Source: Brachyspira sp. G79
Lineage (GTDB): Bacteria > Spirochaetota > Brachyspiria > Brachyspirales > Brachyspiraceae
Assembly: GCF_002379365.1 (NCBI RefSeq)
Contig: NZ_JQIU01000008.1
Span: 2,205,871 to 2,250,358 of the forward strand
DNA length: 44,488 nucleotides
Reading direction: 5' to 3'
The notes beneath the pieces are model-generated. The model saw nothing but the letters and a program-made list of their open reading frames with translations. It was not told where the DNA came from and searched no databases. The position numbers and the translations under genes were made by a program. Below, piece by piece: positions 11,220 to 35,980 of the stretch (position 1 is the first letter of the stretch; every line of letters starts with the position of its first letter).

Positions 11220-11239
11220 TAAACTAACTATAGTATAAA
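11220..11239 (+). promoter_or_regulatory. Late promoter motif, copy 1
   Basis: TAAACTAACTATAGTATAAA, identical in six places. This copy extends to CAGCGA upstream and TCTTTTTTT downstream and lies 33 bases before the first head gene. It contains TATAGT and TATAAA, which could serve as a -10 region. Confidence 0.7.
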
Positions 11240-14716: not shown

Positions 14717-15256
14717 ATGACCTTAGATTATGATTCTTTTTTGAAGTGGGCTTTAATAAAAGAGCCTACTTTAAAAGAGAAAGATCCTTTAATTGAAACT
14801 CCAGAAGATACTATTCCAACAACTTTTGGAATTAGTGAGTATACATATCAGCAAACAACTTTAGCTTATGAAGAGGCATTGAATAGATGTGCCTCTTTAA
14901 AGCGTTATATGAGGGATTATAATTATATTAATTTAATTTTTAATTATGCTCTGCATATATCAATAGTTAGCTCTTCTTTTGCTGTGAAAAAAGATGAGAA
15001 TGGAGATATTTGGAATGAACCGCACGCCTGTGCCCCTGTGGGGACTGAAGCTTTACAAAAACTTTATGTTCAATACGGCGTTTATGACAGTACGGCTGGA
15101 ATAATTATATCTTCTTCGTCAGGCGGTTCTTCTGCCTCATCTACTTTGCCTAAAAGCGTATCGGAAGGCGATTTGGAGACTTCTTGGCTTATGAGTACGC
15201 CGTACGGAGTACAGGCTGAGATGTATTTTGAACAGATGAACGGAATAATAATATAA
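14717..15256 (+). CDS. Head-tail connector candidate
   Basis: A 179-residue protein in the position of an adaptor or head-completion protein (after capsid). It has a helical first half (TLAYEEALNRCASLKRYM, NYINLIFNYALHISIV) and a Ser/Gly-rich linker (SSSSGGSSASS, about residues 132-142) before the C-terminus, a layout reminiscent of DUF4054-type proteins, though the match is weak. It directly follows the previous gene and ends at the first leader RNA element. Confidence 0.45.
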   Translation: MTLDYDSFLKWALIKEPTLKEKDPLIETPEDTIPTTFGISEYTYQQTTLAYEEALNRCASLKRYMRDYNYINLIFNYALHISIVSSSFAVKKDENGDIWNEPHACAPVGTEALQKLYVQYGVYDSTAGIIISSSSGGSSASSTLPKSVSEGDLETSWLMSTPYGVQAEMYFEQMNGIII

Positions 15257-15326
15257 AAGGAGTGAGCCGAAGCCAAATAATGACGAAGTCGGTATTTAAT
15301 CATAGGCGTAGGCGAACATAGTAATA
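15257..15326 (+). promoter_or_regulatory. Split-SD leader RNA element, copy 1
   Basis: AAGGAG (15257-15262) abuts a helix formed by 15262-15274 (GTGAGCCGAAGCC) and 15305-15317 (GGCGTAGGCGAAC). Pairing includes a tandem G.A step and a GAA/GUA internal loop. Inside is a hairpin: AAATA/TATTT, A.G mismatch, U.G, GAC/GTC, loop GAA. The start codon at 15327 follows the helix by 9 bases. The real SD-to-ATG distance is over 60 bases, the folded one about 9. Confidence 0.7.
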
Positions 15327-20511: not shown

Positions 20512-20528
20512 TACTAAAAAATAATAAA

Positions 20529-20604
20529 AAGGAGGAAGTGAGCCGAAGCCAAATAATGACGAAGTCAGTATTTAATCATAGGCGTAGGCGAACATAACAA
20601 TAAT
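20529..20604 (+). promoter_or_regulatory. Split-SD leader RNA element, copy 2
   Basis: AAGGAGGA, then helix 20538-20550 with 20581-20593 (same arms as copy 1). The inner hairpin equals copy 1 except G91 of copy 1 is A here (position 20567), turning U.G into U-A and so keeping the pair. ATG 20605 is 11 bases after the helix. Confidence 0.7.
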
Positions 20605-23623: not shown

Positions 23624-23641
23624 ATAGCAATAAAAGTATAA

Positions 23642-23721
23642 GTGAGAACGAGCCGCCTCGATACTTCAGTGTCGAGGGAGTCATTAGGCGAGTTCGAACA
23701 TAGCAATAAAAGGATTTCTTA
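23642..23721 (+). promoter_or_regulatory. Leader RNA element, copy 3 (variant with its own SD after the helix)
   Basis: Helix 23642-23654 (GTGAGAACGAGCC) with 23687-23699 (GGCGAGTTCGAAC): pairs GU/AC, G.A A.G, GAAC/GTTC, G.A A.G, GCC/GGC. Inner hairpin: 9 bp (23656-23664 with 23669-23677), loop TTCA. Unlike other copies there is no SD before the helix; AAAGGA follows it and ATG 23722 comes later. The element is flanked by ATAGCAATAAAAG at 23624-23636 and 23700-23712. Confidence 0.65.
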
Positions 23722-24678: not shown

Positions 24679-24755
24679 AAAGGAGGAAAGCGAGTACGAG
24701 CCTCAAAGTAAGTTCACTTGCTTTGAGTTTATAGGCGAGTACGAGCATAACAACA
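24679..24755 (+). promoter_or_regulatory. Split-SD leader RNA element, copy 4
   Basis: AAAGGAGG, then helix 24690-24702 (GCGAGTACGAGCC) with 24734-24746 (GGCGAGTACGAGC): two tandem G.A steps flank the self-complementary GTAC. Inner hairpin is 10 bp (24703-24712 with 24717-24726), loop TTCA, with a U.G pair at the seventh position. ATG 24756 follows the helix by 9 bases (ATAACAACA). Confidence 0.75.
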
Positions 24756-26643: not shown

Positions 26644-26652
26644 AAAATAAAA

Positions 26653-26729
26653 AAGGAGGAAGCGATTGCAAGCCTCAAAGTAAGTTCACTTGCTTTGAGT
26701 TTATAGGCGAGCATGAGCATAACAATAAT
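26653..26729 (+). promoter_or_regulatory. Split-SD leader RNA element, copy 5
   Basis: AAGGAGGA, then helix 26662-26674 (GCGATTGCAAGCC) with 26706-26718 (GGCGAGCATGAGC). The inner hairpin is identical to copy 4. The outer arm has drifted: UGC/GCA pairs are kept, one position is U.U and one G.A step has become A.A/A.G. ATG 26730 follows by 11 bases. Confidence 0.65.
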
Positions 26730-33806: not shown

Positions 33807-34168
33807 AATACATAGCAGTTCAAGGCTGTACGCTTACAACAGACAATGCTACAGCTCAGGCTACTATAATAGACAGTCCATCTGTAAAAGTAAAAGCAGG
33901 CGGAAATGGAGTATATAAAACGCCTCTTAAAGTACAGGTTGCGGGAGCTACTCAAGGTAATTTTGCTCAGACTGCCCCAAGTGTTGGAAATATTGAAAGC
34001 ACTGCACAAAAAGTAAAGGCGGATAATGTGCTTGTAATTTTGGAAGGGGATAAAACAAATACTCCTGTTCAATGCCCTGCTACAGACCCAAGCACTGGGG
34101 CAACAACTACAATTATGGTAACAGTTACAGTACAGCAGGCAGGACAGACTAAAGTTTTAGGAGCATAA
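33803..34168 (+). CDS. Spike-associated protein (possible PAAR-like tip)
   Basis: A 121-residue Ala/Thr/Val-rich protein starting at a GTG that overlaps the spike stop. Its pattern (VQGCTLTTDNATAQATIIDSP, then VKAGGNGVYKTPLKVQVAGA) is beta-rich with Gly turns and recalls small PAAR-like or DUF4280-like spike-tip proteins; I cannot confirm metal ligands. GAGG precedes the start. Confidence 0.4.
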   Translation: MKYIAVQGCTLTTDNATAQATIIDSPSVKVKAGGNGVYKTPLKVQVAGATQGNFAQTAPSVGNIESTAQKVKADNVLVILEGDKTNTPVQCPATDPSTGATTTIMVTVTVQQAGQTKVLGA

Positions 34169-34260
34169 AGGAGGAGTGAGCCGAAGCCATCTGACAAACT
34201 TGTTTGGCAGATACTTTTAGGCGACCGAGTAGGCACCCTTTGGGTGGGCGAACATAACAA
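34168..34260 (+). promoter_or_regulatory. Leader RNA element, copy 6 (three-hairpin variant)
   Basis: AAGGAGG, then 5' arm 34176-34188 (GTGAGCCGAAGCC as in copy 1). The 3' arm is interrupted: GGC at 34220-34222, a GACCGAGTAGG loop, an extra hairpin CACCC-TTT-GGGTG (34234-34246), then GGCGAAC at 34247-34253. Inner hairpin: ATCTG/CAGAT, A.G mismatch, CAAA/TTTG. It ends ATAACAATA and runs straight into copy 7, so it has no start codon of its own. Confidence 0.65.
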
Positions 34261-34261
34261 T

Positions 34262-34338
34262 AAAGGAGGAAAGCGAATGCGAGCCTGCGAATAAGTTTAC
34301 TTGTTCGCATATTTAAGGCGAGCAGGAGCATAGCAATA
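34262..34338 (+). promoter_or_regulatory. Split-SD leader RNA element, copy 7
   Basis: AAAGGAGG, helix 34273-34285 (GCGAATGCGAGCC) with 34317-34329 (GGCGAGCAGGAGC), both G.A steps kept. Inner hairpin 10 bp (34286-34295 with 34300-34309), loop TTTA; its lower six pairs differ completely from copies 4 and 5 while the upper TAAG/CTTG part is the same. ATG 34339 follows by 9 bases. Confidence 0.75.
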
Positions 34339-34680
34339 ATGGGAGCATGGCTTTTAGATGTTAATGGGGCTTGGCATGAAGTAACAGGCGATATTGAAAC
34401 TAGGATAATTGATTTTATTACTAGGCTTCAAACTATAAAAGGTGAACAGTCTTTTAATGCTGATAACGGACTTGATTTTTTAAATATTATAAACGGTTCC
34501 TCTTTGCTTGAAGTAGAAGTTGAGAATATAGCAAGAGATTTTAATAATTATTTTGATGTAACGATTGGAAAATCGGAAGAAGATAAAAAAGCAAGAGTAA
34601 TGAAAATAGACATAAATATGAAGCTAAAAAATAGCAGTAATAATGAAACACTTAATTATACTGCTATTATAGGAGTATAG
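34339..34680 (+). CDS. Baseplate wedge protein (gp25/W, Mu gp46-like)
   Basis: A 113-residue protein directly before baseplate J, in the place of Mu gp46/P2 W/T4 gp25. It has the expected beginning (an N-terminal segment LDVNGAWHEVTGDIETRIIDFI, quoted in part) and a C-terminal beta part (KIDINMKLKNSSNNETLNY). It is flanked on both sides by identical leader RNA elements. Confidence 0.55.
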   Translation: MGAWLLDVNGAWHEVTGDIETRIIDFITRLQTIKGEQSFNADNGLDFLNIINGSSLLEVEVENIARDFNNYFDVTIGKSEEDKKARVMKIDINMKLKNSSNNETLNYTAIIGV

Positions 34681-34683
34681 CAA

Positions 34684-34762
34684 TAAAAGGAGGAAAGCGA
34701 ATGCGAGCCTGCGAATAAGTTTACTTGTTCGCATATTTAAGGCGAGCAGGAGCATAGCAATA
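34684..34762 (+). promoter_or_regulatory. Split-SD leader RNA element, copy 8
   Basis: Identical to copy 7: AAAAGGAGG, helix 34697-34709 with 34741-34753, ATG 34763 nine bases later. The copy begins four bases after the stop of the preceding gene; ATAGCAATAA occurs both before the element (34677 onward) and after it (34754 onward). Confidence 0.75.
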
Positions 34763-35980
34763 ATGATAATAGGCAATACTGGAGTAATTAAAGATAACCC
34801 TACAGACATTAGAGATGATATTCTTAATCAAGCTATAGACAACGTAGAGGGCTTTACTAATCTCCCAAGCGGAATACAGAATAATCTTTTAGATGAAAGT
34901 GTTATTGTTATCTCTGAAATACAAGATATGCTCTCTAATGTTATGAACAGCGTATCGCCTCTTTATGCTAATGACTTTATGATTTTAGAGCTTGGCGAAG
35001 CATTTGGTCTAAAAATTAAAGATAAAGCACTTCCAAATACAACTATAACTTTCTACGGACTTGCTGGAGTGGTTATTCCAGAAGGTTTAGAAATAAGCAA
35101 TGAGGATAGTTCTAAAAAGTTTATTACTACAAAAAGCGATATTATAAATGCTTCAGGACAGGTAAGTATTTACTGTGAGGGGGCTGATTATTATGATACG
35201 CCTACACCTGCGAATACTCTTACAGTTATGCTCAATCAAGTATTAAATGTTACTAGCTGTACTAATTTAAATGATGCAGTAGAAACTACACCCGCCGAAA
35301 CTATTTCGGAGTTTAGAATTCGTTTTCAAAATAGAGCTTTAGCAAATAGAAGCGGAACTGTAGCAACATTAAATGATGAATTAAAAAAGGTGGAAGGTAC
35401 AGTTGATAGGCTTTGTACTTATCAGGCTTCGCAGATTGTAGAAGAAGGAGTAAGTAAAGCAGTTTTAGAAGTTATTGTTGGCGGAGGTGATGATTATCAA
35501 GTTGCTTTAGCTATATTTAATAGCGTACTTTATCCTGATATTTTTGTTTCTAATCCTTCAAATGATGAAACAAACAGAACAGTAAATATAAATGTTACTT
35601 TTAATGAAGTTGATTTTCCTATCACTTATACAAGACCTAAAATTAATCAATTAAGCATAAATATTTCGCTTACAGTTCAAAGCGGATTTATTAATATACC
35701 GAGCGAGGCTTTTACTTTACTGCTTCGTACTTATTTTTTAAATTATATTAATAATTTAAAAATAGGATATAGCCCTACTGGTTATGCTTTCGATGATTTA
35801 ATTTATCAATGTTTTAAAGATAATTTTTACAATATAAGCATTATAACTGGAATAAATTATACGCTCACTGTCAATGATGAGCCTGCTTCTTTGAATGCTC
35901 AAAGACAATTACAGACTGAGTTTGATGAGGCATACACATTATTAAATCTACAATGTAATCTCACAGGAGCTAGCGTATGA
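34763..35980 (+). CDS. Baseplate J protein (gp6/Mu gp47-like)
   Basis: The 405-residue protein follows the J family layout: a helical N-terminus (PSGIQNNLLDESVIVISEIQ), the ALPNTTITFYGLAGVVIPEGL strand region, and ETTPAETISEFRIRFQNRALANRSGT (about 188-213, quoted in part), the E-x-x-x-x-FR-x-R-x core of baseplate J. It forms the wedge that links hub and fibres. It overlaps the following I gene by four bases. Confidence 0.8.
   Translation: MIIGNTGVIKDNPTDIRDDILNQAIDNVEGFTNLPSGIQNNLLDESVIVISEIQDMLSNVMNSVSPLYANDFMILELGEAFGLKIKDKALPNTTITFYGLAGVVIPEGLEISNEDSSKKFITTKSDIINASGQVSIYCEGADYYDTPTPANTLTVMLNQVLNVTSCTNLNDAVETTPAETISEFRIRFQNRALANRSGTVATLNDELKKVEGTVDRLCTYQASQIVEEGVSKAVLEVIVGGGDDYQVALAIFNSVLYPDIFVSNPSNDETNRTVNINVTFNEVDFPITYTRPKINQLSINISLTVQSGFINIPSEAFTLLLRTYFLNYINNLKIGYSPTGYAFDDLIYQCFKDNFYNISIITGINYTLTVNDEPASLNAQRQLQTEFDEAYTLLNLQCNLTGASV

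Follow-up and report, generated by a model that had tools for sequence, protein, structure and literature searches.

A hairpin family of Brachyspira genomes and its place between Shine-Dalgarno sequence and start codon in prophage operons

Whether the short direct repeats around a leader element in a Brachyspira prophage record its insertion, and what kind of element they enclose, is the question raised by positions 23,624 to 23,721 of the window, by which we mean the whole analysed stretch of 44,488 nucleotides from Brachyspira sp. G79 (contig NZ_JQIU01000008.1). The window is a contractile-tail prophage in that genome (G000), with terminase, portal, tail sheath, baseplate and major head protein matched. 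The initial annotation had described ATAGCAATAAAAG at both 23624-23636 and 23700-23712 around copy 3 of the element, ATAGCAATAA at 34677 and 34754 around copy 8, and copies 6 and 7 joined by ATAACAATAAAGGAGG from 34254; all of these repeats are indeed present. What it overlooked is that the element occurs throughout the genus, in chromosomes and phages alike, and that copies 1, 2, 4, 5, 7 and 8 lie within a ribosome-binding site.

The element and its copies in the prophage

The copies and second tails in the window are as follows (SD, Shine-Dalgarno sequence; classes A and B are defined below by the distance to the start codon).

15255-15326, + strand: copy 1 (class A); SD AAAAGGAG 15255-15262, hairpin 15262-15317, tail ATAGTAATA 15318-15326, ATG 15327
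20528-20604, + strand: copy 2 (class A); SD AAAGGAGG 20528-20535, hairpin 20538-20593, tail 20594-20604, ATG of the portal gene 20605
23624-23636, + strand: upstream second tail of copy 3, ATAGCAATAAAAG
23642-23712, + strand: copy 3 (class B); hairpin 23642-23699, tail 23700-23712, SD AAAAGGA 23708-23714, ATG 23722
24679-24755, + strand: copy 4 (class A); SD AAAGGAGG 24679-24686, hairpin 24690-24746, tail 24747-24755, ATG of the tail-sheath gene 24756
26652-26729, + strand: copy 5 (class A); SD AAAGGAGG 26652-26659, hairpin 26662-26718, tail 26719-26729, ATG 26730
34167-34263, + strand: copy 6, in tandem with copy 7; SD AAAGGAGG 34167-34174, hairpin 34176-34253, tail 34254-34263
34262-34338, + strand: copy 7 (class A); SD AAAGGAGG 34262-34269, hairpin 34273-34329, tail 34330-34338, ATG 34339
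34677-34685, + strand: upstream second tail of copy 8, ATAGCAATA
34686-34762, + strand: copy 8 (class A); SD AAAGGAGG 34686-34693, hairpin 34697-34753, tail 34754-34762, ATG of the baseplate gene 34763

Alignment of the eight copies gave an element composed of a hairpin of ~57 nt and a single-stranded tail, AUARYAAYAA. The hairpin begins with a closing stem (GY/RC). Next come opposed GA dinucleotides, a stem of 3-4 bp that varies among copies, and GCC/GGC, inside which lie an inner hairpin of 10 bp, free to vary, and a bulge of 7-8 nt on the 3' side. The outer opposed GA pair is almost constant. Many copies have a second GA-rich internal loop and others a continuous stem instead, the inner GA pair giving way to an uninterrupted A/U stem in some of them.

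The unit of SD, helix and tail proposed in the initial annotation was found at copies 1, 2, 4, 5, 7 and 8; it does not describe copies 3 and 6, which have no SD-hairpin-ATG order. Copy 6 has a strong SD upstream, yet no ATG follows its tail and the SD of copy 7 comes next; an extra stem is inserted within the 3' strand of its hairpin. The near-identity of the pairs 1/2, 4/5 and 7/8, and with it spread within the genome, was upheld by the hairpin identities (54/56, 52/57 and 57/57 aligned columns, respectively, the remaining pairs being clearly lower), and copies 7 and 8 show no difference across 80 nt. A covariance model built from the eight copies scored each of them at 64-94 bits, and the next-best match in the window at 19 bits; as the scores of the eight are self-derived, independent support comes from the search of the genus.

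Small secondary palindromes (ACCCTTTGGGTG; CCGCAGGTGGACTTCGTCGG and variants) were also seen in the 3' strand of some elements, like nested repeats, at window positions 34231-34248, in the element before the sheath gene in L134, and in L013 and L017. A separate motif, TAAACTAACTATAGTATAAATCTTTTT, occurs in five near-identical copies at 11220, 18313, 22695, 28553 and 33031 of the window (+ strand), at most ~75 nt 5' of phage genes, and probably serves the phage as a promoter or regulatory site. In L177, a close variant of it lies upstream of the portal gene.

The hairpin structure of the family is established by covariation. In the eight copies, 12 of the 19 pairs vary on both sides; among 41 elements, 17 of the 19 drawn pairs do so, and 93.5% of cells pair. 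The covariation score of these 41 elements was 0.707, compared with 0.198 when shuffled and at most 0.137 when slid. From a structure-blind alignment of the same 41, RNAalifold returned the same fold unprompted, with 17 pairs, 15 of which had compensatory changes. The closed ends belonged to the minimum-free-energy state in 16 of 26 class A hairpins; that they do not always do so may reflect either the penalty of the energy model on GA mismatches or a weak closing stem. Hairpin stability did not differ among classes A, B and C. The structure is thus kept without a split site, which argues for a wider role or a role in mobility. Another repeat, AAAATTGTGAGC...GCGAACAATTTTTATTAGCAATAATA, is of a related type; its outer stem is continuous and its tail similar. 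It was seen at L100:9085 and L143:10622 and in L128 and L131.

Distribution, mobility and flanking repeats

A genus scan with the covariance model (E<=1) matched 24 of 26 Brachyspira genomes, with between at least 1 and at least 105 matches per matching genome, counts that are lower bounds set by the 150 candidates scored in each. The genome of the window itself has at least 48 matches, eight of them in the window. In a phylum sample of 198 genomes (E<=0.001), where 23 candidates were scored per genome and counts are likewise lower bounds, the 22 that matched were all among the 26 of Brachyspira, and none of the 172 genomes outside the genus did. A strict element pattern run against 84,980 species genomes found 17 stretches, all from Brachyspira, and named B. 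hampsonii and B. alvinipulli contigs carry the element. Variation in copy number per genome, which the initial annotation had proposed to look for, is therefore present, from 0 to more than 100 matches. An element confined to phages is ruled out by the chromosomal copies.

We found no earlier description of the element in the open-licence literature on Brachyspira repeats or in Rfam; in the available text of PMC3532143, the only palindromic repeats mentioned are those of CRISPR. Phage records gave no megablast match to 18 kb of the window, and a gapped element pattern found none in viral contigs.

With gene calls that are longest-ORF approximations, 101 of 135 distinct elements lie in sense orientation between co-directional genes and 2 in antisense orientation. 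The rest are in convergent gaps (6), divergent gaps (6) and ORFs (5 sense, 1 antisense), and 14 are too close to the end of their locus for an orientation call. Tandem arrays occur upstream of 3-phosphoglycerate dehydrogenase and methionine-synthase activation-domain genes, the domains having been identified on orthologues in other genomes, and other elements precede genes of these two kinds in several species. The evidence for the arrays is the sequences themselves; automated copy counts upstream of orthologues miss overlapping loci, and their zeros (L043-L091 and similar) are artefacts. The chromosomal tandem arrays of G000 at L141:10549-11026 and L142:10517-10919 are candidate length-variable loci.

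Homologous prophage loci were compared at the junctions of copies 1 to 5, copies 6, 7 and 8 having no homologous locus. Gene order in these loci is the same, and protein identity to the window is mostly 77-93%. The copy 1 junction is filled in L177, with a different inner hairpin. The copy 2 junction is empty in L009, in L156, L175 and L176 (G016) and in L178, and in the empty allele the stop and start codons overlap. The junctions of copies 3 and 5 are empty in L009, L134 and L135, and that of copy 4 is filled in L009 and L134 and empty in L135. At the junction between the sheath gene and the next gene, the window is empty, L009 is filled, and L134 and L135 have shortened relatives. In filled alleles of the same junction the hairpin may differ wholly while the flanks and start codon match (copy 4 against L009), and start codons are identical between filled and empty alleles at copies 2, 4 and 5.

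Homologous leaders are thus not all filled, as vertical descent alone would have them, and the empty junctions rule out that alternative. The proposal of the initial annotation that the elements are duplicated or mobile is borne out, with empty junctions at copies 2, 3, 4 and 5. The elements would come by insertion or recombination, get lost again and multiply in tandem. One of them lies in frame within a prohead-protease ORF, near its start (L140:10956-11036, - strand), and adds 21 codons; the homologue in L147 has no element.

The direct repeat around copy 3, which had been taken as a mark of insertion, consists of the element's own tail and a second tail upstream of it. Because its downstream half is the constant 3' tail, only the upstream half needs explaining. 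When the 40 nt preceding each element were examined, 30 of 129 elements had a second tail there, compared with 111 of 15,118 background stretches (0.7%); this total was used alone, as the split into tandem and lone tails is unreliable (copies 6-7 were labelled 'solo'). GARY, the end of the hairpin 3' arm, precedes 18 of the 29 listed upstream tails. Given this excess, and GARY before most of these tails, the bracketing at copies 3 and 8 would most simply be a tail from a tandem pair, belonging to an element that is adjacent or has been lost; the upstream tail of copy 3 itself has no GARY before it, and we infer a tandem origin there. A target-site duplication was rejected for copy 3, since ATAGCAATAA is the element's own 3' tail and second tails recur upstream. 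An empty site with a single ATAGCAATAA, as predicted in the initial annotation, exists as a lone tail in L151 and L144. At copy 3 the prediction failed: the empty alleles have no ATAGCAATAA, so that the tail is part of the mobile unit and not of the target.

Flank-to-flank direct repeats above the 99% null score were found at 8 of 128 elements, where ~1 was expected; two of these (L143 and L145) are tandem arrays and another two (L022/L112) represent a single locus shared by two genomes, which leaves five independent loci. At these five single-insertion loci the flanking repeats are 26-56 nt and vary in length, and several of them repeat the last part of the upstream gene, stop codon included. 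At L152:4477-4555, where the 3' end of that gene stands on both flanks, its two copies appear to differ at synonymous sites alone, which recombination between diverged homologues would explain as well as duplication on insertion.

As to the machinery, Y1_Tnp (RAYT) was found in none of the 26 Brachyspira genomes, with 5 of 14 control genomes positive. RVT_1 (reverse transcriptase) is present in 7 of the 26, including the element-free G022 and G041, and was not found in the element-rich G000, G003, G011, G013, G014, G016, G017 and G020. Absence from all element-rich genomes rules out RAYT, and absence from most of them RVT_1, as required machinery.

Start-codon classes and the role of the hairpin

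The 135 elements were classed by the distance from hairpin to ATG, with 9-14 nt in class A (n = 28) and 15-45 nt in class B (n = 39), the elements far from any start forming class C (n = 68). An SD was called when a match of at least 5 nt lay in the 16 nt 5' of the hairpin or between hairpin and ATG. The position of the SD proved to be class-specific, which is a new finding. It lies 5' of the hairpin in 26/28 class A, 0/39 class B and 1/68 class C elements (Fisher test, 1e-16 for A vs B and 2e-24 for A vs B+C), with hairpin limits that were set from short motifs and are doubtful in the two class A elements that have no SD (L004 and L150). Between hairpin and ATG, an SD was found in none of the 28 class A and 34 of the 39 class B elements. 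The search model (R1) includes SD and ATG columns and might favour SD-bearing copies; against such a bias, class A copies score well clear of the threshold, and the same scans also yielded classes B and C.

In class A, the SD-AUG distance is 59-99 nt with the hairpin and 9-19 nt without it, and the collapsed spacing has its mode at 14 nt from the A of GGAG, compared with 6-8 nt in class B. An alternative in-frame start preceded by an SD was found within the first 60 codons of none of the 26 class A genes with SD. A PHROGs comparison of 18 proteins downstream of class A elements placed 11 in phage families, among them terminase, portal, endolysin, head-maturation protease and tape measure. For class B, 10 proteins were scanned and 5 had a match, of which one, a tail sheath, is clearly a phage structural protein.

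On these comparisons, we consider it rather likely that the elements are a Brachyspira-specific mobile family acting at the RNA level, in which the class A hairpin folds out and lets ribosomes use a distant SD. In prophage operons the class A hairpin lies between a strong SD and the start codon. Its folding would loop out ~57 nt and bring the SD-AUG distance from ~65-75 nt to ~14-16 nt, so that the 30S subunit could use both. Insertion would swap a short or overlapping stop-start junction for an intercistronic gap with its own start signal, and in class B the element stands upstream of a complete, ordinary SD-ATG. We infer from the sequences that, with the hairpin folded, ribosomes may use the SD beyond it, and that phage copies may persist for that reason.

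A precedent is found in T4 genes 38 and 25, where, according to the available text of PMC3014915, a structure that separates SD and AUG reduces their spacing from 22 to 5 nt and from 27 to 11 nt, respectively, and a destabilised structure gives lower initiation. The collapsed spacing of class A exceeds that of class B and is at or beyond the 11 nt of gene 25, so that folding may plausibly bring the SD close, though without an exact fit; alternatively, the SD of class A could be a standby site or a passive part of the phage subfamily. In a further version of the proposal, the mobile element would be tolerated by bringing or adjoining its own SD and folding out of the ribosome-binding site at tight stop-start junctions, and would move without RAYT or RVT_1, possibly by way of an RNA copy; such a route would agree with the sense bias and with flanking repeats of variable length. 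We put this forward tentatively and would lean against it.

The same data may be read as those of a functionless, selfish small repeat, whose hairpin would serve the mobilising machinery, whose sense bias would come from purifying selection, and whose SD would belong to the unit of the phage subfamily. Presence/absence polymorphism, tandem arrays, copies in 6 convergent gaps, the 68 of 135 elements far from any start, the equal structure across classes and the in-frame insertion in the prohead-protease ORF all suit such a repeat. However, a hairpin acting at the DNA level alone predicts no strand bias, and the bias is 101 to 2; moreover, a passenger SD would be expected sometimes upstream in classes B and C, where it was seen in 1 of 107, or missing in class A (2 of 28). 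We judge this reading unlikely.

A translational operator or riboswitch-like element, in which the hairpin with its GA-rich internal loops would bind a protein or ligand controlling initiation, appears quite improbable. The downstream genes are functionally mixed, and the inner hairpin is swapped wholesale at orthologous positions (copy 1 against L177, copy 4 against L009), although the outer opposed GA pairs and the tail are conserved beside variable stems, the placement is that of a leader, and the association with 3-phosphoglycerate dehydrogenase and methionine synthase activation domain genes recurs in several species. Rfam gave no match in the window at the gathering score, and a relaxed scan of 34100-34800 gave two matches, both with E above 4 and neither credible, which counts against an operator of this kind; an Rfam riboswitch is ruled out by these scans of the window.

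A role in mRNA processing or stability has been proposed for ERIC and Correia repeats. An RNase III, E or Y site, or a protective hairpin, would account for the sense bias, the location between cistrons and in 3' regions, and the equal structure in all classes, but it leaves unexplained that the SD lies 5' of the hairpin only where the ATG directly follows the tail, and we hold it to be very improbable. MIRU carries a short ORF that overlaps the start of the downstream gene and is coupled to it at -4 nt; that a mini-ORF in the Brachyspira element similarly brings ribosomes to the downstream start codon has next to no likelihood in spite of the ATG 9 nt past the SD that opens a 5-codon frame in copies 7 and 8 and of the insertions at short or overlapping stop-start junctions, and is ruled out by lack of enrichment, with starts at a usable SD distance in 6 of 26 class A elements and 9.4 expected from shuffled hairpins.

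Relation to known systems

Class A shares with split ribosome-binding sites an over-long SD-AUG distance across a structure, and the structure is supported by covariation. In T4, as far as the available part of PMC3014915 goes, a stable RNA structure likewise shortens an over-long SD-AUG spacing at a phage intercistronic junction, and the structures are short, lie at two single sites and are kept by descent among T-even phages. The Brachyspira element, in contrast, is a hairpin of ~57 nt that stands before many unrelated genes, is variable among homologues and has chromosomal relatives. The arrangement resembles that of T4, and what would be new is its occurrence on a dispersed, mobile module. 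To our knowledge, split ribosome-binding sites were previously a handful of single cases.

Among dispersed repeats, REP elements are small and palindromic, and RAYT is an IS200/IS605-like Y1 transposase. The Brachyspira elements are also small dispersed palindromes, but their genomes are without Y1_Tnp (0/26). Unlike MITEs, they have flanking repeats that vary from 26 to 56 nt and no target-site duplication of fixed length (five loci), and unlike an RVT_1-dependent retroelement, they abound in genomes most of which have no RVT_1.

According to the available text of PMC12548453, MIRU is short, sense-oriented and apparently mobile, is inserted at start codons and forms tandem arrays. The Brachyspira element is like it in size, in sense orientation between co-directional genes, in start-codon insertion and in tandem arrays, and differs in that its mini-ORFs are not enriched and that its unit is a covarying RNA hairpin with the SD outside. 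In the available part of PMC3049150, BOX, RUP and SPRITE of Streptococcus pneumoniae are described as overrepresented between convergent genes and are treated as MITE-like repeats that have terminal inverted repeats. From what that part contains, limited host range, conserved RNA structure, modularity and dispersal between genes are points of likeness; split-RBS placement was not found in it.

The 28 natural class A examples come with replaced hairpins, empty alleles and internal controls in the form of classes B and C, so that how far the 30S subunit bridges a folded insert becomes directly testable. The same set also lets the entry of a mobile element into an operon without breakage be tested. 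For Brachyspira itself, the family supplies length-variable tandem loci upstream of genes, for example that of 3-phosphoglycerate dehydrogenase.
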